Shown: piece after piece, positions 2,515 to 28,956 of the stretch
Layout of the letters: every line of letters starts with the position of its first letter
Numbering within the stretch: position 1 is the first letter of the stretch
Assembly: GCF_900113415.1 (NCBI RefSeq)
Contig: NZ_FOPH01000029.1
Coordinates: forward strand, 1 to 32,081
Source: Oribacterium sp. WCC10
GTDB lineage: Bacteria > Bacillota > Clostridia > Lachnospirales > Lachnospiraceae
DNA: 32,081 bases
Direction: 5' to 3'
Program-made: the position numbers and the translations under genes
The notes under the pieces: generated by a model
The model's input: only the letters and a program-made list of their open reading frames with translations
Told to the model about the DNA's origin: nothing
Database searches by the model: none

Positions 2515-2719
2515 CAGCTTTTCCTGCAAGGCTGATTGCTAGGGCATGTGTTAATGCAGCTATTCCGCCTTTTGCTGCAGTATAGCTTTCAGTCTGAGGC
2601 TGACTCATCCTGTCACGGGATGAAGAAATATTGATTATACATGCTCCGTCTGACAATACAGGTATCAGAAGCTTTGTGAGATAAAACGGAGCGGTCACAG
2701 CTACTTTACCATTGGTCAT
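2507..2719 (-). pseudogene. Short-chain dehydrogenase/reductase with internal deletion and lost C-terminus
   Basis: This is a broken copy of the SDR at 17557-18261. It keeps the opening NGKVAV, then jumps to TAPFYLTKLLIPVLSDGAC and continues through the catalytic ISSSRDR and SYTAAKGG region, stopping at LAGKAGM. Relative to the intact copy, 88 codons are missing in frame; these include the TGGAHGIG nucleotide-binding loop and the NNA motif. The C-terminal 70 or so residues are replaced by the DUF1643-like tail. The ribosome-binding GGAG of the intact copy has become TGAG. It cannot bind NAD(P) and is very probably non-functional. Confidence 0.85.
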
Positions 2720-2735
2720 AACGATCTCAATCTTC

Positions 2736-2766
2736 AAAAAAGCCGCCTACAATTATTACAGGCAGC
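2736..2766 (-). terminator. Intrinsic terminator / attenuator in front of the broken SDR
   Basis: Read on the minus strand, GCTGCCT and AGGCGGC arms (one G-U pair) enclose a short AT-rich loop and are followed by six T residues. It ends 16 bases before the SDR fragment's ATG. The same hairpin is found in front of the intact SDR (18278-18309). A terminator between a long leader and a start codon is the usual layout of transcription attenuation. Confidence 0.6.
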
Positions 2767-2784
2767 TCTAAAGAATTTTAAAAA

Positions 2785-2942
2785 TAAAACCAAAAAATTT
2801 TAAACAAAATTATTTTGACCCATGCCCCCTGCTATTACTGGCTCTGTAAGGTTTTGTTCATTTTAAATAAAATCTACAAAACAGTAATATACACCTATAC
2901 AATATTATAATAATTTTGTTTGTTTTTACAGTAAAAATATGT
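2785..2942 (-). repeat. Leader-like repeat, copy 1 (candidate structured RNA)
   Basis: About 158 bp nearly identical to 21304-21461 and recognisably related to 18310-18452. On the minus strand it holds a long hairpin (2833-2889): outer arms TATTACTG/CAGTAATA, inner arms GTTTTGT/ACAAAAC, and an AT-rich apical stem. A TATAAT lies upstream of the hairpin. It sits upstream of the terminator and SDR fragment. No reading frame is conserved across the copies. I could not match it to a known riboswitch class by eye. Confidence 0.6.
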
Positions 2943-3106
2943 GTTATAGAGTTCATGCGCAAGTGCATTAAGCTTTCTAAAAACTTCTTTACACCTCCAG
3001 AACATCAATCATTCCATTTTTTTAATGCTGTCCATGTATGTTTCTACTTGCTTTTTACATTGTGTCAGTAGAGAACTCTTTAGCCCCCTACTGACAATTT
3101 TGGGGG
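2943..3106. other. Intergenic remnant with inverted repeat
   Basis: No complete gene. A minus-strand frame without a start reads CKKQVETYMDSIKKME before a stop near 3013 and may be the tail of a lost helical protein. A 9-bp inverted repeat (TGTCAGTAG/CTACTGACA, 3063-3096) lies just downstream of the DAPG hydrolase fragment. It lacks a strong T-run on either strand, so it is only a weak terminator candidate. Confidence 0.4.
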
Positions 3107-3742
3107 TTAGAAATTATCTTTATTATCGTAATACAATTGTGGAAGGAAAGAAGCTAAGTTAGTAAATTCTTTTATATTATGGGCATAAAGATTCTTTGAA
3201 ACCTGTTCAGGAACGCTAATACCGTCAGGCAAACCTTTTATAAGCTCGCCACTTTCGGACATTTTTACTCCAATCCAAAATCTTGAACATAGCATTACAC
3301 CATCCTTGTGTGGATACCATTTGTGAGTCATAGCAGCAGCACAATTCCCTTCTCCAATGGCACATACCATAGATGCACATTTTTCGGTTCCGATCAAAGA
3401 TTCATCATATCCAAAGTCTCTTGGTCTTTTAAAGTTGAGTTTAATGAAATCCGGACCAAAACCTGTATCTTCCAAGATGTAATGACTTACATTCCATGTT
3501 TTTTGATTAATCGGAACTGAAGGGTCAACCACATAATCAGCTCTATCAGCTCTTGCAAAATAATGATCTTCAGGATCCCAAATTTTATATCTTAGATCAG
3601 AACCTACACTATGCCAAGGAAACCACCAATCAAGCATTTCAGGAGCAACTCCGGACATATAGGTCTCATTACAAACGAAACCCATTCCATCCGGGTTTGT
3701 TCCATAACCAATCTGACAATAATCACTGTCCTTACCGCTCAA
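3107..3742 (-). pseudogene. DAPG hydrolase (PhlG) family protein, 5'-truncated
   Basis: The 211-residue frame matches the second part of the 2,4-diacetylphloroglucinol hydrolase family: YGTNPDGMGFVCNETYMSGV, MLDWWFPWHSVGSDLRYKIW with DPEDHY, later GFDP-like and RFWIG segments. Family members cleave C-C bonds in acylated phenolics and are normally longer at the N-terminus. Here the only start is a TTG reached by reading out of an aldo/keto reductase start (3739-3828), with no ribosome-binding site. The zinc-binding His/Glu set cannot be judged complete. Probably the decayed last member of the TetR operon. Confidence 0.7.
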
Positions 3743-3828
3743 ATTTTATCGTTATCTATAAGCCATGTTCCAAGTGCAAGCTGCGGAACAACAACACCAT
3801 TTGATAATGTGCTCGTAGTATTAAACAT
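3739..3828 (-). pseudogene. Aldo/keto reductase N-terminal stub
   Basis: A 29-codon frame with a strong ribosome-binding site (GGAGGAAACAAAAG before the ATG at 3828) encodes NGVVVPQLALGTWLIDNDKI and stops. NG(V)xxPxLGLGTW is the standard start of aldo/keto reductases. The rest of the barrel is missing and the DNA continues directly into DAPG hydrolase sequence, so this is a deletion or recombination joint at about 3740. The intact start signals suggest the upstream part of this operon position was once a third AKR gene. Confidence 0.7.
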
Positions 3829-3852
3829 CTTTTGTTTCCTCCTGTTAACCAT

Positions 3853-4608
3853 TTATGATAATTTGCCATAGTCTTCATCCGATACAGCTTCCAGCCAATC
3901 GTTGCTTGTTTCCTCCCCGGCAACCTCGATTGCAAGATGTGAGAACCATGAATCCGGTGCTGCTCCATGCCAGTGTTTTACTTCAGCAGGAATGTTTATT
4001 ACTTTACCGGGTGTCATCTCAATCGCATCTTTACCCCATTCCTGATAATATCCTCTTCCACCGATGCAGATCAGCATCTGACCGCCACCATTCTTTGCAT
4101 GATGGATGTGCCAGTTATTACGGCATCCCGGCTCAAAAGTTACATTGAAGACAGGCACCTGCTCAGTTGAAACAGGAGCGAGGAAGCTTTGCCCAACAAA
4201 GAACTCTCCATAGGGGTTCGGATCTCCGATAGGGAAGAAAATCGAATTTTGATACCTGTCCTTTTCTGTCAGCTCTGGTACTTCTTCATTCCATACTTCC
4301 TTTGCAAGACGAAATACTGCCCATCCCTTTGGCCATCCTACATACATGGTGGCATGGGTTATGATGGCTGCAATCTCTTCCTTTGTGACTCCGTGAGCCT
4401 TCGCATTCTGAAGGTGATATGAAAGCGATGAGTCTGTGATGCCTGATGCCATAAGTGAAACCACTGTAATAATGCATTTGGTCTTAACATCAATCGCTTC
4501 CTCATTCCACACTTCACCAAAGAGTACATCATCATTTAAGTGTGCAAACATCGGAGCAAACTCACCAAGCTGATCTCTTCCTGCTGTCTGTACAATTTTC
4601 TCGCTCAT
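3853..4608 (-). CDS. Carboxymuconolactone decarboxylase-cupin fusion protein
   Basis: 251 residues. Residues about 10-115 form a CMD/AhpD-like helical domain (VKTKCIITVVSLMASG, SSLSYHLQNAKAHGVTKEEI, THATMYVGWPKG). Residues about 135-235 form a cupin with NNWHIHHAKNGGGQ and later PAEVKHWHGAA, supplying the usual metal-binding histidines. CMD-cupin fusions of this kind often sit with aldo/keto reductases and flavodoxins in Firmicutes; the substrate is unknown, probably a quinone-like or lactone compound. The classical CMD catalytic EACxxH pair is absent. It starts 11 bases after the AKR stop, with GAGGT upstream, so it belongs to the TetR operon. Confidence 0.85.
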   Translation of the reverse strand: MSEKIVQTAGRDQLGEFAPMFAHLNDDVLFGEVWNEEAIDVKTKCIITVVSLMASGITDSSLSYHLQNAKAHGVTKEEIAAIITHATMYVGWPKGWAVFRLAKEVWNEEVPELTEKDRYQNSIFFPIGDPNPYGEFFVGQSFLAPVSTEQVPVFNVTFEPGCRNNWHIHHAKNGGGQMLICIGGRGYYQEWGKDAIEMTPGKVINIPAEVKHWHGAAPDSWFSHLAIEVAGEETSNDWLEAVSDEDYGKLS

Positions 4609-8259: not shown

Positions 8260-8682
8260 TCATATCTCCAGTCTCATCTGCAGATCCAGCCAGCTTTTCT
8301 GCTCTGCCTCATGGATTACATCACCGGGCTGACTGTTCCCGATCAGGAAAGGTGACTTTGGATCGTGCTTCGTCATATTCTCTCTCACAAGTGCTGCATT
8401 CGTATTGGCATAACAGTACCTGCAAAGATGTCCACAGGTATCATATGCTCCGATATCTGCACCCAAAAGGCAGGCGCATTCATTGTTCCTCTGATTCCTG
8501 TTTCGTTTAGTAACATCGAGTCTTGCATGGAGAGCAGTCTCAAAAGTCTTTACCGTCATACAGCCGGAACAGTCTGCACCATATGATGCAAGATCATTTC
8601 CCTCAGCACACGGTCTGATGATCATGTCATGCTGTTTTGCGATCTCAGATTCATAGTAAAAGGCTTCCCACACTTCGGGCAT
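8260..8682 (-). pseudogene. DUF1848 protein, C-terminal fragment
   Basis: The frame encodes the cysteine-rich end of DUF1848: CAEGNDLASYGADCSGC, then RNNECACLLGADIGAYDTCG, HLCRYCYANTN and KHDPKSPFLIG. The CxxDIGxYxTCxHxCxYCYAN arrangement is the family hallmark and probably holds an iron-sulfur cluster. The N-terminal half is missing; upstream the DNA belongs to a sirtuin in another frame. The 61 bp overlap of the two frames includes the joint, where a stretch around 8644-8665 reads plausibly in both proteins. Confidence 0.75.
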
Positions 8683-9170
8683 TTCGGGATCAGATCCTTC
8701 GGAATCTTCATATCCTTTTGCTGCTCCACCATGTTTCTGACCATCTCTTCATTTTCATAGGTCACATCCGAGCACGGTTCGCTGCACTGGAACAGCCCAT
8801 AATCATCCTGGGTATAAAAAAGTCTATTCTTATCAAAACCCGCCTTCTGGAAACAATGATCCACATTCGTTGTGATGACAAAATAATCCTTATCCTTTAC
8901 CCAAGAAAGCAACTGCTCATAAACAGGCTTTGGTGCATCCATATATCTGTTTACAAAGATGAACTTCGACCAGTAAGCCCACATCTCTTCCGAAATCTCA
9001 TAAGGGTAGAACCCACCGGAGTACATATCCTTAAATCCATACTTCTTTCCGAAATCCGAAAAATGCTTCTCAAAGCTCTCACCGTTATAAACAAATCCTG
9101 CGGAAGTCGAAAGACCTGCTCCTGCCCCGATCACAACAGCATCAGCTTCTTCTACCGCCTTCTTTAATCT
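8622..9170 (-). pseudogene. SirTM-like sirtuin, truncated at both ends
   Basis: This is a broken copy of the sirtuin at 24168-25184. It begins inside the coding region (RLKKAVEEADAVVIGAGAG, preceded by an in-frame stop at 9171) and keeps the NAD loop GAGAGLSTSAGF, TTNVDHCFQKAGFDK, and YTQDDYG. Unlike the intact copy it has the zinc-ribbon cysteines: CSEPC and CPKCG. After TMNLRS the frame runs into DUF1848 sequence and stops, so the last 100 or so residues of the Rossmann domain are lost. The only start is an internal GTG at 9134. Non-functional. Confidence 0.8.
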
Positions 9171-22070: not shown

Positions 22071-22994
22071 TCAAGAATTATGTATTACATTTCTCTTTCC
22101 ACTATTGGCAGTTCCTCTTACTTCTTCGTGGTAAAAGTAATCTACGATTGTTGGATGTCCTTTCTCTACTCTCTCATACGGAGTTTCATTATCAACAAAC
22201 CTGCAATCATACTTTTTAGCCAGCTCTTCTGCTTTCTTTTCCAGCGCTTCAAAATAGCTGCGGTTCTTTTTGTTATAAATTTCGTCATACAGCGGCACCA
22301 GATCCGGATGTTTATCGGAAATGTATTTCATGATATCTGCCTTAAAACCTCCGCGAAGATTCAGATTCTCAAGCCATACAAGGTCACACTGATCTTTTGT
22401 CCTGTCTATGATTGCTTCTATATCCGTAATCCCCGGGAAAACGGGTGAAATGAAGCAAATTGTACGAATGCCTGCCGCATATACCTCTTTCATTGCAGCA
22501 AGCCTTCTTTCTATGCTTACTGCCGCATCCATATCATCTTTAAACTCTTCATCGAGAGTATTGATTGACCATGATACTGTAAGTCTGCTATTTTCATTGA
22601 TCTCTTTTAGCAGATCCAGATCTCTTAGTACAAGGTCTGACTTTGTGCAGATAAGTATGTCCGCACCACTGTCCTTTAGTTCTTCCAGAAGTCTTCTTGT
22701 ATTTTTATATGTTTCCTCTAGCGGATTATAACCATCCGTAACTGTTCCAATGATTACCTTCTGGCCGGCATACTTCTTTGGATTCTTTATTTCAGGCCAG
22801 TCTTTCACATCCATGAAGGTTCCCCATTCCTCCGTATGCCCTGTAAAGCGTTTCATAAAAGATGCGTAGCAGTATTTACAGGCATGGGGACACCCCACAT
22901 AGGGATTCACCGAATATCCTCCAATAGGAGTATTCGATTTTGTCATTACACTTTTTGTTTCTATATGATTTACTTTGATTTCTGGTTGTTCCAT
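22071..22994 (-). CDS. SPL-family radical SAM protein
   Basis: 307 residues. The radical SAM cluster motif is VGCPHACKYCYASFMKRF (CX3CX2C). GYNPLEETYKNTR, LICTKSDLVLRDLDLLKE, SWSINTLDEEF and FISPVFPGITDIE resemble the spore-photoproduct-lyase-like and 'rSAM DNA repair' group (COG1533). Such proteins bind [4Fe-4S] and S-adenosylmethionine; the substrate of this subgroup is not known. The start lies within the end of the gene at 22970 (25-bp overlap), so the two are translationally coupled. A C-terminal relative is found at 11188-11439. Confidence 0.85.
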   Translation of the reverse strand: MEQPEIKVNHIETKSVMTKSNTPIGGYSVNPYVGCPHACKYCYASFMKRFTGHTEEWGTFMDVKDWPEIKNPKKYAGQKVIIGTVTDGYNPLEETYKNTRRLLEELKDSGADILICTKSDLVLRDLDLLKEINENSRLTVSWSINTLDEEFKDDMDAAVSIERRLAAMKEVYAAGIRTICFISPVFPGITDIEAIIDRTKDQCDLVWLENLNLRGGFKADIMKYISDKHPDLVPLYDEIYNKKNRSYFEALEKKAEELAKKYDCRFVDNETPYERVEKGHPTIVDYFYHEEVRGTANSGKRNVIHNS

Positions 22995-23668
22995 ATCCTC
23001 TGTTCCTCCAGCACTTTGTTAAAAGCATCCGGCATTTCCTGTATCATTTCTTCTCCCATAATCGGAACAAGATCTTCTTTCCAGAATACAGGAATGTTCA
23101 GTTCATGAGCCTGTTCTGTCAATGAATAAGCCCACCCGGGATCTGTTTTAACAGTCCTGCTCTTTGCACCTGTCATGGTTCCCACCACAATCCAGTCAAT
23201 GCCTGTAAGATCAACCTTACCCGGATCATCGAACAAAGGCTCAAAGGTAACATGATATTTTTTTGCCTTCACATTGCTCCGCAGTGCATCAATACGCCAT
23301 AACTCAGACTTTCTCGTAACTGTAACGCCAAACCATGCATTATCAAGATCTGTTTCAAAAGACAGAAGATCCGGTCGTTTGGTAAGAAAAAGAAACTGGT
23401 GCTGAGGATTCTCTGCTATCTTTTTAAAGATTTCCTCTCTCCATTCCTCATGCCAGCCCGAAAGATCGCTCATGCCGGTCAGCAGAAAATTCTGCGGTTT
23501 TTTCTTTTCCATCATACGAAGCTTTCCTTGAAAAAACTGTGGCTTTTCAAAATCATCTATGATGTGATAACGCCTCGTATTGTTTCTGGCATAGCAGTAC
23601 GGACATCCAACAGTGCACCCTATAACAAGATTCATGTTCTGAATCTGATCTTTAATACAGATACTCAT
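22970..23668 (-). CDS. DUF5131-like radical SAM protein
   Basis: 232 residues. Cluster motif IGCTVGCPYCYARNNTRRYH (CX3CX2C) near the N-terminus, followed by LLTGMSDLSGWHEEWREEIF, FLFLTKRPDLLSF, WFGVTVTRKSE, and VTFEPLFDDPGKVDL, a set typical of Gp37/Gp68-type (DUF5131) proteins. Complete to a normal C-terminal helix. Four-base overlap with the MarR stop and 25-base overlap with the next radical SAM gene make a tight three-gene unit. Two different radical SAM proteins acting as a pair suggest a two-step modification or an enzyme with its partner. Confidence 0.82.
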   Translation of the reverse strand: MSICIKDQIQNMNLVIGCTVGCPYCYARNNTRRYHIIDDFEKPQFFQGKLRMMEKKKPQNFLLTGMSDLSGWHEEWREEIFKKIAENPQHQFLFLTKRPDLLSFETDLDNAWFGVTVTRKSELWRIDALRSNVKAKKYHVTFEPLFDDPGKVDLTGIDWIVVGTMTGAKSRTVKTDPGWAYSLTEQAHELNIPVFWKEDLVPIMGEEMIQEMPDAFNKVLEEQRIWNNQKSK

Positions 23669-24102
23669 TTGTCACTCCATTCCTCAAGGTTTACCCTGAT
23701 GCGGTTTAGATACTCTTCAAACTGAAGAATCTCTTTATCCGTAAAATCACGATAATAAATATTCCCCATCTCATTGGATACGGAGTCATAAGCTTCTTTA
23801 AGTTCTTTGGCTTTATCTGTGAGGAACAGAAGAGTTTTTCTCTTATCAGCTTCATCAGTTTTGCGGCTTATCAGTCCGTTTTTTTCCATCCGCTCAAGCA
23901 TGGTTGTAAGTGAAGTAATTGCAAGTCCGCTTTTCTCGGAAATAATTTTAATAGGAACACCATCTTCCTGCCATAAGACATAAAGAATCCTTCCTTGAGC
24001 TCCGTTAAATGCATCAATGTTTTTTTCTGCCAGTATCCTTTCAAATATACGATCACCCAGCTGTTTTATTTTTGTAACAAGAAATCCACCATTTGCCTTC
24101 AT
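23665..24102 (-). CDS. MarR family transcriptional regulator
   Basis: 145 residues with a standard MarR fold: GAQGRILYVLWQEDGVPIKI, SEKSGLAITSLTTMLERMEK, NGLISRKTDEADKRKTLLF wing with the usual DxRxxx pattern, and long terminal helices. First gene of the unit with two radical SAM genes, and its ATG lies only nine bases from a perfect long palindrome over the promoter. Autorepression, with co-regulation of the radical SAM genes, is the natural reading. The ribosome-binding TAGGAG is itself part of the palindrome. Confidence 0.9.
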   Translation of the reverse strand: MKANGGFLVTKIKQLGDRIFERILAEKNIDAFNGAQGRILYVLWQEDGVPIKIISEKSGLAITSLTTMLERMEKNGLISRKTDEADKRKTLLFLTDKAKELKEAYDSVSNEMGNIYYRDFTDKEILQFEEYLNRIRVNLEEWSDK

Positions 24103-24110
24103 AATTTAAT

Positions 24111-24158
24111 ACTCCTATATCGTAGTTTAATGCTACGATATAGGAGTATTTTTGTCAA
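24111..24158 (-). promoter_or_regulatory. marR-rSAM promoter with perfect 15-bp-arm operator
   Basis: Minus strand: TTGACA (24153-24158), 17 bp, TAGCAT (24130-24135). A perfect inverted repeat with arms ACTCCTATATCGTAG and CTACGATATAGGAGT (24111-24147, 7-base centre) covers the -10 region and start site, and reaches to the ribosome-binding site. MarR proteins bind this kind of site. In RNA the same repeat would form a hairpin hiding the TAGGAG, so it could also limit translation. Confidence 0.8.
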
Positions 24159-24167
24159 GCACACATA

Positions 24168-25184
24168 TCATAACTTCCAATAATCACGCCACCTGTGATT
24201 ATCCAAAAGCTCATCTATATCACAGTTAATGCATACGCTCCTATCTTCTATCTCTCTGGGACAGTATGCCTCTTTGTAATTCAAGCATGCATATGTAGCT
24301 TTTTCATTTTCCATTGTCATTTGCCAGAATGGATACTTAATTATTACTGGTGTATTGCTGCCTACCCCAAGTTCCAGGAAAAGCACATGCAGATTTTCAT
24401 GTCTTCTAAGGAAATCAGAATAAGCCGCTGATGCTCTATGCCAGCCTCCATCTTCAAGGAATGTATCATCACTTCTAAGATTCATGGTGACATCACTTCC
24501 ATCAATCGGACACTTTGGAATCAAACTGCTGTCAATTTCCATTCTGACCACGCCGCCAGATGGTATTGCAAAAATTCCATTCCCATCCTTAACAAATCCC
24601 TGAGATTTCATGGCATTCATCACCCAGTCTTCATTATCAAAGTTTTTCCTAATTGCCGGATTCAAACTTTGAAACAGACCATAATCTCCCTGAGTGTAAA
24701 ATAATCTTTTCTTATCAAAGCCTGCTTTCTGAAAGCAATGATCCACGTTTGTTGTAATCACAAAGTAATCTTTATCCTTAACAAGGTTATAAAGTTTTGT
24801 ATAAGTATCTTTAGGTGCATCAAGGTATCTGTTGATGTAGATATACCTTGACCAATATGCCCAGAACTCTTCCTTGGTTTTGTATGGGTAAAACCCGCCT
24901 GAATACATGTCCTGAAAACCATATTTTCCTTCAAAATCAGAAAACCACTTTTTAAACCGGTCTCCACTGTACGTAAACCCTGCGGAAGTAGAAAGTCCTG
25001 CCCCGGCTCCAATAACAATAGCATCAGCTGTCTTTATTTCTTCTTTTAATCTGTCAAGCTGCTCTGTATCATCATCTTTTCCAAGGGACATACCGCTGTT
25101 AAAGCTATGTATGGCACTTAAACCTTTTTTTATTGTTTCTTGATATCCATTTGGCTGAAACAATCTGATCTTAGCCGTTGTCAT
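24168..25184 (-). CDS. SirTM-type (class M) sirtuin, protein ADP-ribosyltransferase
   Basis: 338 residues. NAD loop IGAGAGLSTSAGF (58-70), TTNVDH (144-149) and YTQGDYG (163-169), where a Gln replaces the catalytic His of deacetylase sirtuins. This N-D-Q triad marks SirTM enzymes, which ADP-ribosylate lipoylated GcvH-like proteins in concert with a macrodomain hydrolase. The second Rossmann part (ELGVGSNTP) is intact. Unlike the broken copy at 8622 it has only one cysteine in the zinc-ribbon region (CPIDG). GGAGTG lies upstream; 20 bp downstream of the macrodomain gene, in the same operon. No GcvH-L or lipoate ligase gene is in the window. Confidence 0.87.
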   Translation of the reverse strand: MTTAKIRLFQPNGYQETIKKGLSAIHSFNSGMSLGKDDDTEQLDRLKEEIKTADAIVIGAGAGLSTSAGFTYSGDRFKKWFSDFEGKYGFQDMYSGGFYPYKTKEEFWAYWSRYIYINRYLDAPKDTYTKLYNLVKDKDYFVITTNVDHCFQKAGFDKKRLFYTQGDYGLFQSLNPAIRKNFDNEDWVMNAMKSQGFVKDGNGIFAIPSGGVVRMEIDSSLIPKCPIDGSDVTMNLRSDDTFLEDGGWHRASAAYSDFLRRHENLHVLFLELGVGSNTPVIIKYPFWQMTMENEKATYACLNYKEAYCPREIEDRSVCINCDIDELLDNHRWRDYWKL

Positions 25185-25204: not shown

Positions 25205-25987
25205 TTAACCATTTAACAGTTTTTCATATATTTCAAAATCAAGGTCCTTAAATACATTGAAAACAATCTTCATCTCACTGCCTGTCTCATCAAGCCAGTT
25301 TTTAACTGTCTCTACAGCAATCTCAGCAGCTCTCTGATTAGGAAACATGAAAACACCGGTAGAAATGCAGCATAAAGCAATGCTCTTTACGCCATTTTCT
25401 TCTGCTATATCAAGGCATGATTTATAGCAGGATGCCAATAGTTCCTCATGTTTTTTAGTCAGAGGTCCTTGAACTATAGGACCTACTGTATGAATAACAT
25501 AATCACAAGGTAAATTATATGCCGGAGTGATTTTGGCCTGACCTGTAGGTTCAGGATGCCCCTGCTTTTCCATTATGCAGTTACACTTGTAGCGGAGGCC
25601 AAGCCCAGCTTTCGAGTGAATAATGTTATCTGCGCAGGAATGAAGAATTTGCCAGCATCCTGTGAGACCACTGTTCGCAGGATTTACGATAGCTCCAATC
25701 TTTAACGTAGTCATATCACCTTGCCAAAGAATGATTCTATCATCACCTTTTATAGGTGGTAAGCTATGTACATCAACTATGCCAGCTAATCTATTTTCCT
25801 CAGATAAATAATCGTCATGAATTTTCCAAAACTCGTCATCATAATCCTTTGGAATCCAAATATTCATAAGTCCGCGCAGCAAATCCTTTTGCCCCTGTTT
25901 GTCCTTAGGTATTGGATAATTGCTAAGCTGACTATCTTCTTTCTGTAATTCCTGTATCAACCAAATTCTTTGTTCATCATGATTCAT
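25205..25987 (-). CDS. SirTM-linked zinc-type macrodomain protein
   Basis: 260 residues. A helical N-terminal part (1-75) precedes a macrodomain: WQGDMTTLKIGAIVNPANS (88-106), GCWQILHSCADNIIHSKAG with Cys111, His116 and Cys118 as the zinc-site candidates, EPTGQAKIT, and the ADP-ribose loop CISTGVFMFPNQRAA. The Zn-Macro class removes ADP-ribose from protein targets marked by SirTM. The first strand carries VNPANS in place of the more common VNAANS. The ATG overlaps the five-HTH gene by 11 bases and the sirtuin follows 20 bp later, so the three are coupled. Confidence 0.88.
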   Translation of the reverse strand: MNHDEQRIWLIQELQKEDSQLSNYPIPKDKQGQKDLLRGLMNIWIPKDYDDEFWKIHDDYLSEENRLAGIVDVHSLPPIKGDDRIILWQGDMTTLKIGAIVNPANSGLTGCWQILHSCADNIIHSKAGLGLRYKCNCIMEKQGHPEPTGQAKITPAYNLPCDYVIHTVGPIVQGPLTKKHEELLASCYKSCLDIAEENGVKSIALCCISTGVFMFPNQRAAEIAVETVKNWLDETGSEMKIVFNVFKDLDFEIYEKLLNG

Positions 25988-27155
25988 CTAAAGATAGTCC
26001 CCTTTCTTCCGCATATTTCTTTAATATATTGTAATTATCTCTGCTAGGAATAAACCTTCCTTGCTCCCAGTTAGCTAAAGATGATCTTGACACATCCAAT
26101 TCCTTAGCAAATTCTCCCTGTAGCATTCCGCATTGTTTTCGTATACTTCTTATTACTTTACTATATCCACTATTACAGAATAGCTCATAATCATCACCAA
26201 TCAATTCCGGAGTCTCATTTAACTCCGCAATGGTAATTCCTTTTTCCTTAGCTATTCTCTCTATAGTTTTGAAGTACTTAAGCTCTGGAGTACAAATACC
26301 TCTTTCCCATCTACAGACTGCTTCTCCAGTACACCCAATAAGATTTCCCAAAGCATAGGTTGTCATTCCATATGCCATTCTGATACTCTTTATTTTCTTA
26401 TTGCAGTCTTTCTCTATAAATCTTTGAAAATCACTCCCAAAATAGGACGGATTTGCATTTAATCTATCAAGTTCAATACCACAGGCGATAGCAGTTTCTT
26501 TTATAGCTGGAAAATACTTTCTTAAAGGTCTTACACATTCTATCTCCCAATGCTCCAGAGTTTGTTTGTCACATCCTATCACTGATGCATATTCTTCCAA
26601 GAGCATACCATGTGCTAACCTAATTTGTTTAATCTTCAGACCCCAATTGCTTTCAACAAAAATATTGTACTCATCTCTATATTCAGCAGGATTATCCATC
26701 AGCCTATTAAAATCAACTCCAATGCCCACTGCAAGATTTTTTATCTTATTGAAACTTTCTTCGTTTGGATGGAAACCCGTGCATTCAGATTCCCATGCTG
26801 ATAGCCTGCTTCTGGTTACACTGATAAGATCTGAAAACTCTTGTTGAGTCATACCATACATCTCTCGTATTTTTGCAATGCAAATACCATAACCAGGTTT
26901 GCAAAATCGAGTATGCTCATTAAGAAGTTCATCCGGACTAATATTGAGAATTTTGCCAAGCTTGACTGCATCTTTATAATGAATTGGATTGAATCCTCTC
27001 TCCAAATCCACTATTCCATATGCCCTCTTATATCCAAGTTTATCTGCCAATTCCTGATGACTAATTCCACGGTTCACTCTATGATACAAAAGAATTTCTC
27101 CAGGAGTAGCATCTTCAGAAGGCTTTTCTACAGGTAATGCAAGGTTTACGAGCAC
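25977..27155 (-). CDS. Protein with five tandem XRE-type HTH modules
   Basis: 392 residues made almost wholly of five Cro/CI-type helix-turn-helix modules, at about 18-78, 89-155, 170-235, 250-314 and 330-392. Each has a first helix IR..YGM or similar, an HTH core (QQEFSDLISVTRSRLSAWES; GEFAKELDVSRSSLANWEQG) and a conserved W-E or L-E at the end of the recognition helix. Linkers repeat a D-E/Y-x-x-F pattern, so the unit is about 78 residues. No enzymatic or ligand domain is seen. Start: GTG at 27155, without a clear ribosome-binding site and overlapping the truncated macrodomain gene by ten bases, so the true N-terminus may differ. No close family is recalled. Confidence 0.8.
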   Translation of the reverse strand: MLVNLALPVEKPSEDATPGEILLYHRVNRGISHQELADKLGYKRAYGIVDLERGFNPIHYKDAVKLGKILNISPDELLNEHTRFCKPGYGICIAKIREMYGMTQQEFSDLISVTRSRLSAWESECTGFHPNEESFNKIKNLAVGIGVDFNRLMDNPAEYRDEYNIFVESNWGLKIKQIRLAHGMLLEEYASVIGCDKQTLEHWEIECVRPLRKYFPAIKETAIACGIELDRLNANPSYFGSDFQRFIEKDCNKKIKSIRMAYGMTTYALGNLIGCTGEAVCRWERGICTPELKYFKTIERIAKEKGITIAELNETPELIGDDYELFCNSGYSKVIRSIRKQCGMLQGEFAKELDVSRSSLANWEQGRFIPSRDNYNILKKYAEERGLSLDES

Positions 27156-27580
27156 CTTGCCATTCTTTTGTTGTATACCTGTGTGATTGAGGTAGGTGCC
27201 GCTTTATCTATGCAAGTATGCATCGGGACAAAACAACCGAGCATCTGCGAATTAGCGGCATTAACAATAGCATCCACCGAAAGTCTTGTGATATCTCCTT
27301 GCCAGATAGAAAGTCCGTCCCTGATAACCGGAATGTCTGACAGATTCACCACACCCTTTTCAGCCGCTCTTTCAGTCAGATATTCATCCTGTACTTTCAT
27401 GACCTCAGAAGATAATTCTTTTGGCATACGAATATTCATAAGTGACCTTAAGATTCGTCTTTTATCTTCCGTACTATTTGGAGTCTTTAAATCCTTATAT
27501 TCAGCAGAATCTGCCTTAAACTCTTCTACGAGATAATCAAGGCGTTCTTCCTGTGTTGATTTTTTAGCCTTAGTTTCCAT
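27146..27580 (-). pseudogene. Zinc-type macrodomain protein, C-terminally truncated
   Basis: Starts at the ATG at 27580 (METKAKKS; AGAAGG upstream) and matches the intact Zn-Macro through the helical N-terminal part and macrodomain opening: WQGDITRLSVDAIVNAANSQ and LGCFVPMHTCID (Cys116, His121, Cys123). Then, instead of the rest of the fold, it reads KAAPTSITQVYNKRMARCS and stops, overlapping the five-HTH start. The ADP-ribose loop and the second half are gone, so no hydrolase activity is expected. Its VNAANS strand is closer to the usual form than the intact neighbour, so it is not a recent copy of it. First gene of the operon. Confidence 0.8.
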
Positions 27581-27594
27581 ATTACACATCCTTC

Positions 27595-27629
27595 TAAAAA
27601 AAGACTCTGAAGTAAACACCTCAGAGTCT
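27595..27629 (-). terminator. Intrinsic terminator after the Rrf2 gene
   Basis: Arms AGACTCTGA and TCAGAGTCT (9 bp, perfect) with an 11-base... loop region of ten bases, followed by seven Ts on the minus strand. It begins just after the rrf2 stop and its T-run touches the ribosome-binding site of the truncated macrodomain gene. The macrodomain-HTH-macrodomain-sirtuin operon therefore has no room for a promoter between terminator and start, unless one lies inside the coding region or read-through feeds it. Confidence 0.8.
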
Positions 27630-27634
27630 CATTG

Positions 27635-28075
27635 TTAAGCTTCTTTTGCCAACAGTTCCTGCATTCCGGATCTTAAATCATTAAGAGTGTATTTTTTCAT
27701 CTCGGATTCCATCGCTTCCTGGATGCTTTTCAACTTATCATCCAAAAGTAAATGGATATTCCTACCAACAGGGCACTCTGGATTTGGTGATTCATGAAAT
27801 CTAAATAAATCTCCATCCTCCAAAGGCTCAATTGCCTGATACACATCATAAAAAGTTATATCTTTAAGATCTCTTGTAAGCTCTATTCCGCCTGTTCCTC
27901 TGATAACATTTATTAGCCCTGCGTTCTTAAGCTGAGTAAGTATCTTTCTAATGATGACAGGATTCGTATTTATACTGGCTGCAAGAAAATCGCTCGTTAC
28001 CTTGTGTTCATCCTTAAATGTATCCACACATGTAAAAATATGAAGTGCAACCGTAAATCTACTTGATATCTGCAT
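27635..28075 (-). CDS. Rrf2 family transcriptional regulator
   Basis: 146 residues from the ATG at 28075, which has GGAGAG upstream; the longer frame to 28114 is unlikely. MQISSRFTVALHIFTCVDTF, then TSDFLAASINTNPVIIRKIL (HTH) and VIRGTGGIELTRDLKDITFY (wing) are typical of YwnA/IscR-like Rrf2 proteins. It has only a single cysteine in the cluster-loop position (PNPECPVGRN), so it does not look like a classical three-Cys [2Fe-2S] sensor; it may be a thiol-based switch. A matching operator lies in front of this gene and in front of the SnoaL gene. Confidence 0.88.
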   Translation of the reverse strand: MQISSRFTVALHIFTCVDTFKDEHKVTSDFLAASINTNPVIIRKILTQLKNAGLINVIRGTGGIELTRDLKDITFYDVYQAIEPLEDGDLFRFHESPNPECPVGRNIHLLLDDKLKSIQEAMESEMKKYTLNDLRSGMQELLAKEA

Positions 28076-28148
28076 TTTTAATCTCTCCATTCCATTTCGG
28101 TCGGCGCAGAACAATCATCCACTGGACGATTTGCGCCCTCCTGTCACC

Positions 28149-28187
28149 ATTTTACTTCGTGGCAGATGTAGTTGCAATGGTTACATT
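28149..28187 (-). promoter_or_regulatory. rrf2 promoter with operator (site 2)
   Basis: Minus strand: TTGCAA (28172-28177), 17 bp, TAAAAT (28149-28154). The operator at 28165-28187 has outer parts AATGTAAC and TACATC and matches the SnoaL-promoter site at 18 of 23 positions. In both, the operator covers the -35 hexamer at the same offset. The two sites look like one regulator's targets, with Rrf2 the obvious candidate. Confidence 0.7.
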
Positions 28188-28956
28188 AAAACTTTCCGTT
28201 TTCATTAGCCCATGTAGACTTATCAGCTAATGTCTCCATTACATCCCAGTGCTCTGCGATAAATCCGTTCTCAACACGGAACAGATCATAGTAGGTTGTA
28301 GGTACACCGCCAAAGGTTCCTTCCGAGCAGGCAAGTGCATAATCTCCATCTGCAAGAACCATATGAGTCTTGTTATAAACCATTGAGATTCCCTGCTTAG
28401 CCATAGCTTCAAGTGCAGCTCCAAGACCTGAAAGACCATCTGCAATTGAAGTATTATGCTGAATATATTTATCTCCATCGTAGTAAGAAGTGAGCTTGTC
28501 AGGATTCTCCCCACGAAGTACATCGCCTACAAATCCGGCAACAACCTTACGTGTCTCTTCCTTATCTACATCTTTCTTCTCAAGAGTTCCATCAATCTGA
28601 GTATGTCCTGAAGGATTAGGAGCTGCCTTGTCTGCCAGATTATCCCAGTGCTCTGCAATCTTACCGTCTGCATCGAATCTAAAAACATCGAATCCGACCT
28701 GCTCTCCTGCTCCTGCAAAATTATATACTGTCTGAAGGAAAACCTTATCTCCATCCTCGAATGCACGAATGTTATTAACTGTTGTTTTTACAGGTGCCTG
28801 TGCAAGTCCTTCAACTGCTGCTACAAATGCATCTGCCCCTGTTCCAAATGCGAGGTTATGCTGAATATAACCTGGTGCAAGAAGTTCCTTTGCCTTTGCT
28901 GTATCTCCTGATACGAATGTACCGATGAGTGCTAATGCTTTTTCCTTATTTGTCAT
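28186..28956 (-). CDS. Tandem SnoaL/NTF2-like protein
   Basis: 256 residues containing two SnoaL-like halves (about 5-110 and 130-250). The halves repeat the YIQHN motif (GYIQHNLAFG and KYIQHNTSIADG) and an FRVENG/FRFDADGKIAEHWD end. SnoaL-like cyclases and hydratases act on polyketide-like or aromatic substrates, but most bacterial members are of unknown role. The ATG at 28956 has AAAGGAAA upstream. A longer frame begins at a TTG at 29082, which lies inside the promoter, so the ORF as long as that is ruled out. Expected to be controlled by the Rrf2 regulator downstream. Confidence 0.85.
   Translation of the reverse strand: MTNKEKALALIGTFVSGDTAKAKELLAPGYIQHNLAFGTGADAFVAAVEGLAQAPVKTTVNNIRAFEDGDKVFLQTVYNFAGAGEQVGFDVFRFDADGKIAEHWDNLADKAAPNPSGHTQIDGTLEKKDVDKEETRKVVAGFVGDVLRGENPDKLTSYYDGDKYIQHNTSIADGLSGLGAALEAMAKQGISMVYNKTHMVLADGDYALACSEGTFGGVPTTYYDLFRVENGFIAEHWDVMETLADKSTWANENGKF

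Follow-up and report, generated by a model that had tools for sequence, protein, structure and literature searches.

SirTM/Zn-Macro operons, in which the gene of a Zn-macro (a macrodomain protein) adjoins that of a class M sirtuin (SirTM), are the described systems closest to the one presented here. The motif Cx4HxC is given as the Zn-loop motif of Zn-macros, and beyond the extended operon the targets of these systems are described as elusive (PMC11490716); the extended operons are reported to encode their own target, GcvH-L (PMC11490716, PMC4518038), and the Lachnospiraceae are named among the carriers (PMC4518038). The present study concerns contig NZ_FOPH01000029.1 of Oribacterium sp. WCC10, the whole analysed stretch of 32,081 nucleotides (nt) being referred to as the window; it holds a Zn-macro with Cx4HxC adjoining a class M sirtuin—macro2 and SirTM2—preceded directly by a gene for a chain of five tandem helix-turn-helix (HTH) modules, hereafter the array, and by macro1', the 5' half of another Zn-macro gene (Table 1). 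The host is a rumen-type bacterium. Both the five-module anatomy of the array and its linkage to ADP-ribose genes are direct observations; as for its role, the chance is about even that the array, which strains exchange as an allele, is a regulator that binds DNA and acts on the Zn-macro/SirTM2 block.

The whole array chain matches the Pfam family HTH_3 in four stretches with an E-value of 6e-33 and 113 bits against a curated cut-off of 23, i.e. it belongs to the XRE/Cro-CI superfamily, and the Pfam scan of the chain found no domain besides HTH. A window-independent profile, made from the modules of the homologues in genomes G418, G431 and G292, placed five modules, no more and no fewer, on the protein of the window (weakest match 1e-14); over 500 shuffles of that protein it found five domains at 0.01, which equals the chance expectation. 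The AlphaFold model consists of five units, each of four to five helices (mean pLDDT, the predicted local distance difference test, 74.9; pTM, the predicted template modelling score, 0.43). The modules start at residues 17, 88, 170, 250 and 330, the spacing thus being 71–82 residues, and the recognition helix is followed by Leu-Glu in module 1 and by Trp-Glu in modules 2–5. An earlier note, made from the sequence of the window alone, had described five HTH units in one chain without any other domain, as repeats of about 78 residues with a Trp-Glu or Leu-Glu, and had proposed to look for five folds in a structural model; all of this was borne out. Foldseek gave no match for the whole chain at E 0.001; its second-look list contains mostly matches of module 1, so that families missing there are not thereby excluded.

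Scored singly, modules 1, 2 and 5 each exceed a Pfam HTH cut-off, whereas modules 3 and 4 have HTH-family matches that all lie below it. The weak scores of the latter two and the co-exchange of the array with macro2 (see below) could mean that the modules do not bind DNA and that the chain is a protein–protein adaptor or scaffold for macro2 or SirTM2. This is improbable, however, since modules 1, 2 and 5 score as ordinary HTHs, and since G418 (9/11 identical residues) and G431 (8/11) retain the recognition helix of module 4, and G431 that of module 2 as well. A DNA-bound scaffold for ADP-ribosylation, proposed in the earlier note, would be a further conceivable role.

Table 1. Features of the array locus in the window
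Feature	Position	Strand	Remarks
SirTM2, class M sirtuin	24168..25184	minus	closest among solved structures: 5a3a (4e-54)
macro2, intact Zn-macro (protein-ADP-ribose hydrolase) with Cx4HxC	25205..25987	minus	start overlaps HTH stop, 11 nt; 340 bits against NF003163 (cut-off 272); best solved relative 5kiv
Tandem-HTH (XRE/Cro-CI) array gene	25977..27155	minus	392 amino acids, five modules, without other detected domain; GTG start at 27155
HTH module 5	25980..26168	minus	residues 330-392; top Pfam score among the five
HTH module 4	26169..26408	minus	residues 250-329; alone, below Pfam cut-off
HTH module 3	26409..26648	minus	residues 170-249; alone, below Pfam cut-off
HTH module 2	26649..26894	minus	residues 88-169
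HTH module 1	26895..27107	minus	residues 17-87; distinct type; 63% identity to G292 module 1
Dyad, 7-nt arms, 8-nt loop	27139..27160	minus	over HTH start codon; perfect in 7/8 aligned loci
65-nt junction core	27144..27208	minus	1 variable site, seven loci
macro1', 5' half of resident Zn-macro gene	27146..27619	minus	N-terminal extension and Zn-loop part
Rrf2-family regulator	27635..28114	minus	terminator-like hairpin after it at 27601-27630

The search with the array provided ten loci—the window, L003 (=G207), L004, G440 (=L005), G445 (=L006), G418, G431, G436, G292 and G234—included for at least 42% identity over the chain or as a remnant, and at all ten of them the array is found directly 5' of a Zn-macro gene, which agrees with the tie to NAD+/ADP-ribose genes suggested earlier. 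A SirTM gene comes directly after macro2 in eight of the ten; it is truncated in L003 and located further away in G234, and none follows macro2 in G292 within the stretch examined. Two more remnants, in G340 (11 codons, by eye) and in G208, are of less weight, having been found from the macrodomain side; that of G208 (L059 148-402) is an open reading frame (ORF) of 84 amino acids with one HTH-like stretch, 46% identical over 24 residues to module 3 (E 4e-5), and it shares 4 nt with the start of a Zn-macro gene that is more distantly related. Judged from such a remnant, the linkage of the array to Zn-macros may formerly have extended further.

Array matches at 1e-10 were found in 5 of 299 genomes of the family, with 9 of 397 in another family sample and, by group, 1/17 in the own genus, 6/79 in the genus of G207 (Butyrivibrio), 0/3 in that of G340 and 5/344 in the order, all these counts including the own genome and coming from overlapping samples with different queries and thresholds. 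The Zn-macro family is common (180 of the 397 family genomes at 1e-40). Among the 20 macro loci inspected, which are the top of these 180 genomes, five (G207, G292, G234, G340 and G208) have an array or a remnant in front of the macro gene; in one of the 20, L049, the macro ORF is masked by a longer antisense ORF and the neighbour was not judged. An evolutionary tree of macro proteins (31 in total) places each of the 12 rows that carry an array or a remnant in a single group of 18 (support 100/99), and ten of them in a less well supported inner group of 11 (91/88), in which G135 is the exception without an array, G234 and G208 being positioned outside. The array label requires four changes on this tree, compared with a shuffled mean of 9.8 and none of 500 shuffles as low (three versus 9.2 if the G208 remnant is left out), with the caveats that near-copies favour clustering of the label and that macro2 is partly recombinant between alleles, so that the inner order of the tree is unsure.

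Seven of the 12 array copies are intact and five are broken or remnants; the array of G440 is frameshifted (in a metagenome assembly), 49 codons remain in G445 and a 76-amino-acid ORF in G234. Loss of the array from five of the 12, while the macro gene stayed, shows that these loci can dispense with it. At L006 a short segment with hairpin-like repeats, as seen by eye (487-610, SIG341), stands in place of macro1' and four HTH modules, the macro2–SirTM2 pair being intact behind the Rrf2 gene.

More distant homologues, 26–33% identical, are two-HTH proteins of G201, G169, G222, G032 and G067, and no macrodomain gene was seen alongside any of the five. The two best of them, those of G201 and G169, are encoded directly 5' of TnpV (PF14198), no TnpV being visible by eye beside the other three. 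A position of homologues next to macrodomain genes, which the earlier note proposed to check, therefore holds for the close ones, all beside a Zn-macro, and not for the distant ones; widespread homologues lacking this link, which that note would have taken as contrary evidence, were not found among close homologues. The similarity of G201 and G169 to the window frame continues (NHT...GK) on the 5' side of the GTG, so that the HTH gene is most likely a descendant of this tnpV-linked two-HTH family that lost its original N-terminus. An origin from a phage or a plasmid was rejected, since tblastn gave no array match in collections of 50,697 phage and 72,556 plasmid records and viral contigs yielded two pattern matches but no relative.

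An alternative is that the array is a hitch-hiker, i.e. a leftover mobile-element regulator from the tnpV-linked two-HTH family that came to lie in front of a Zn-macro gene, has little role in ADP-ribose metabolism and is now being lost. Apart from the TnpV neighbourhood and the shared stretch upstream of the GTG, the five decayed copies and a ratio of non-synonymous to synonymous substitutions (dN/dS) of 0.5–0.9 within the window group would be in line with it. It nevertheless seems rather unlikely, because the array persists before the Zn-macros of one supported group with alleles only 42–53% identical, the ORF is intact at seven of 12 loci, dN/dS against G292 is 0.21, and the array has grown to five or six modules.

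The alleles differ in both length and sequence: there are two modules in G292, five in the window and G418, and six in G431 and G436, the identities to the window array being 52% (G292), 50% (G418) and 42% (G431/G436). Compared module by module, the window and G418 share 57, 40, 40, 64 and 43% identity, and window module 4 is nearest to module 4 of G431; because the modules correspond by position, their expansion seems to predate these alleles. In G292 the second module is most similar to module 2 over its first half (69%, G418) and to module 5 over its second half (62% of 21 residues, window), and this two-module allele may represent either an ancestral or a contracted state. When the window is compared with G436/G431, blastn finds no match between 27099 and 26025, the identity in macro2 is 59–83% in the first 660 nt and 97–100% thereafter, and SirTM2 is 97–98% identical in G418, G431 and G436. 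As read from these alignments, this is allele exchange, with a variable block of the HTH gene plus much of macro2 between near-identical flanks, the module number presumably having been changed by recombination between modules. A diversification of the recognition helices was rejected: over nine module pairs they are no more variable than the rest of the module (47/99 versus 172/363), which argues for a shared site rather than for allele-specific targets.

The position directly 5' of the macro gene, the co-exchange with much of macro2 and the precedent of GcvH-L, a target encoded within the extended operons, would also suit the possibility that the array is the substrate of the pair, SirTM2 ADP-ribosylating it and macro2 cleaning it, so that the NAD+/redox state would switch DNA binding. 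Were this true, the minimal SirTM/Zn-Macro pairs of these bacteria would constitute a transcription switch responding to redox state or NAD, in which ADP-ribose toggles a multi-HTH chain whose alleles of two to six modules are swapped between strains. The probability of such a toggle, and of the array as a substrate at all, appears small, given that SirTM2 is near-constant while the array falls to 42% identity, that the array is rare and the Zn-macro common in the samples given above, and that G292 shows no SirTM behind macro2 within the stretch examined.

The array locus has replaced part of a resident operon. Macro1', cut after the Cys-Ile-Asp codons and ending in a foreign tail that overlaps the HTH start by 10 nt, covers only positions 3-123 of 265 of the protein-ADP-ribose hydrolase model and scores below its cut-off. 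Of the two macrodomain genes that the earlier note saw overlapping the array, macro2 is intact, the upstream one being half a gene. Matches to macro1 at 1e-12 occur in 27 of 79 Butyrivibrio genomes (the contig of G207 is also that of B. hungatei DSM 14810). Of the 15 matching places inspected from these 27, twelve (L121-L132) encode a whole macro1 (ORFs of 267–310 amino acids) that is 83–95% identical to macro1' over the common part and is followed by its own SirTM, 65–72% identical to SirTM2 (as two ORFs in L127), without an HTH gene in between; the remaining three have more distant macros, also each with a SirTM after it. In six of the 12 operons without the array the Rrf2 gene precedes macro1 too, and blastn of three of them against the window stops at 27204. 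The operon forms of G426 (without an array) and G436 (with one) look like alleles of one site, because the same gene series lies to their left, as judged by protein starts and by Rrf2 and PNPOx matches. On the sequence evidence, the 3' half of the resident macro1 and its SirTM have been replaced by the array, macro2 and SirTM2. Before the macro gene in G436 there is a PNPOx–ferredoxin fusion (PNPOx_N and Fer4, L086 6541-7161), a place taken in G426 and G340 by proteins with like starts; such a neighbour would fit a redox role.

The retained fragment has a dN/dS of 0.092 over 117 codons (15 pairs of six fragments), compared with 0.054 in the same half of intact macro1 genes (66 pairs of twelve genes), and the proportion of non-synonymous differences (pN) is 0.036 versus 0.018. 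The pattern is, by these estimates, not that of neutral decay; with a dS between the window and L003 of 0.18 in macro1' and 0.013 in the array, the fragment seems still to recombine with intact genes, and selection at the protein level cannot therefore be concluded. In G440 (L005 5591-6010) the block is preceded by half of another Zn-macro, which is 56% identical to macro1' and joined at the same GATAA; read from the junction, this would be a very short-tract or illegitimate recombination.

Within the junction core the macro1' stop overlaps the HTH GTG, and the dyad, too, lies for the most part inside it. To its left macro1' is 84–94% identical to the window (G436, G431 and L003) or, in G440, a different macro, and to its right the HTH body diverges until no similarity can be detected. 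An almost invariant 65-nt tract (one variable site) flanked on either side by a variable segment, at which four different macro1 ends (the window, L003, L004 and G440) meet nearly the same array, might be a recombination site that moves the alleles, the array helping in the manner of an excision factor; the tnpV linkage of its relatives could be added, TnpV being postulated to act in excision (PMC3158075). This explanation is very improbable, as the block showed no recombinase gene and the differing right ends agree with ordinary homologous recombination between operons with macro1 and SirTM sequence in common.

The dyad may act as an operator or as a coupling hairpin, or recombination may simply have kept the tract uniform; it is the best candidate for a binding site of the array. 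Its RNA fold clearly beats shuffles only in the window (z -2.4; 3/200 shuffles as good). At three mismatches it occurs in four places of the window including itself (0.85 expected; 1/100 shuffles with as many), and no second copy with at most one mismatch exists in the genome, for which reason a dyad-defined regulon was rejected. The idea that the single chain reads a long repeated site found no support nearby: 27000-28260 contains only two-copy direct-repeat families, and none lie in 24100-24250 or 25900-26060. No canonical slippery site for a frameshift from macro1' into the array was seen by eye.

Regulation of its own block remains the safest interpretation of the array, because of its fold and linkage; that it binds DNA, that the overlaps couple translation and that it controls the block are inferences. 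As a single chain of HTH modules, the array would make several DNA contacts per protein and would act for the Zn-macro/SirTM2 pair, whose genes come directly after its own. With array, macro2 and SirTM2 in place of the macro1 3' half and its SirTM, macro1' is left as a leading ORF that overlaps the HTH start, and the overlaps would couple the translation of macro1', the array and macro2. Strains swap the HTH gene plus much of macro2, modules presumably being gained or lost by inter-module recombination. Because relatives with two to six modules stand directly before the gene of an ADP-ribose-removing enzyme, the array suggests itself as a dedicated, fast-changing partner or controller of the ADP-ribose removal pathway.

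Elsewhere in the window, at 8622-9134 and 8260-8682 (minus strand), a broken second SirTM (60% identity over SirTM2 residues 46-241) adjoins a DUF1848 C-terminal remnant, the whole being a decayed further sirtuin locus. The window also contains an NCBIfam 'radical SAM mobile pair' trio (22071-24102, minus strand), all three members above the cut-off, with a perfect 18-nt dyad at 24108-24150 before its MarR gene.

Several known systems were rejected as the identity of the array. A type II antitoxin of the HigA/MqsA type would have an adjoining toxin, in place of which there is a macrodomain hydrolase downstream and a macrodomain fragment upstream. DarTG is not compatible with a sirtuin as the partner and with no DarT-type family among the ten window proteins scanned. 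As to known anti-phage systems (PADLOC 2023), all 19 family matches of the array lie within the HTH modules, and none of the models matches macro1', macro2 or SirTM2. In L044 (G340), an AbiEi-like/AbiEii toxin–antitoxin pair is located between macro2 and SirTM (2605-4106), the AbiEi match being below the cut-off.

Wmk, the WO male-killing protein of Wolbachia, carries two HTH domains; its NCBIfam model matches array residues 26-204 (2.9e-13), but with 49.9 bits against a cut-off of 300 the array is not a member. The tnpV-linked Lachnospiraceae proteins of G201 and G169 share with the array two HTH_3 modules in the same order and the N-terminal NHT...GK, yet they are only 25–26% identical, have two modules instead of five and TnpV instead of a macrodomain gene alongside; despite NHT...GK in its frame, the array, with five modules and a macrodomain gene downstream, is therefore not a member of that family. 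Unlike the XRE regulators P22 c2 and HigA, array alleles have five or six domains per chain and no other Pfam domain. The extended SirTM operon differs in that GcvH-L and LplA2 are not among the ten window proteins scanned with Pfam. The term 'helix-turn-helix' is absent from the main texts of PMC11490716 and PMC4518038, and among the open-licence papers listed on SirTM (also with phage defence), tandem HTH, Butyrivibrio macrodomains/sirtuins and TnpV no title or beginning of an abstract mentions such a protein, in accordance with the earlier statement that no SirTM operon with one was known. With the minimal SirTM/Zn-Macro operon the locus shares the adjacent macro2 and SirTM2, matching solved Zn-macros (5kiv and others) and 5a3a, and the Cx4HxC motif, to which the window adds the HTH array directly 5' of macro2 and a truncated macro1. 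The array, macrodomain-linked and with intact alleles varied in length and sequence, is thus a concrete candidate partner for SirTM/Zn-Macro systems with elusive targets, as well as a clear case of a DNA-binding domain whose copy number varies as a tandem array at a single locus, useful for asking how one chain with five HTHs reads DNA.
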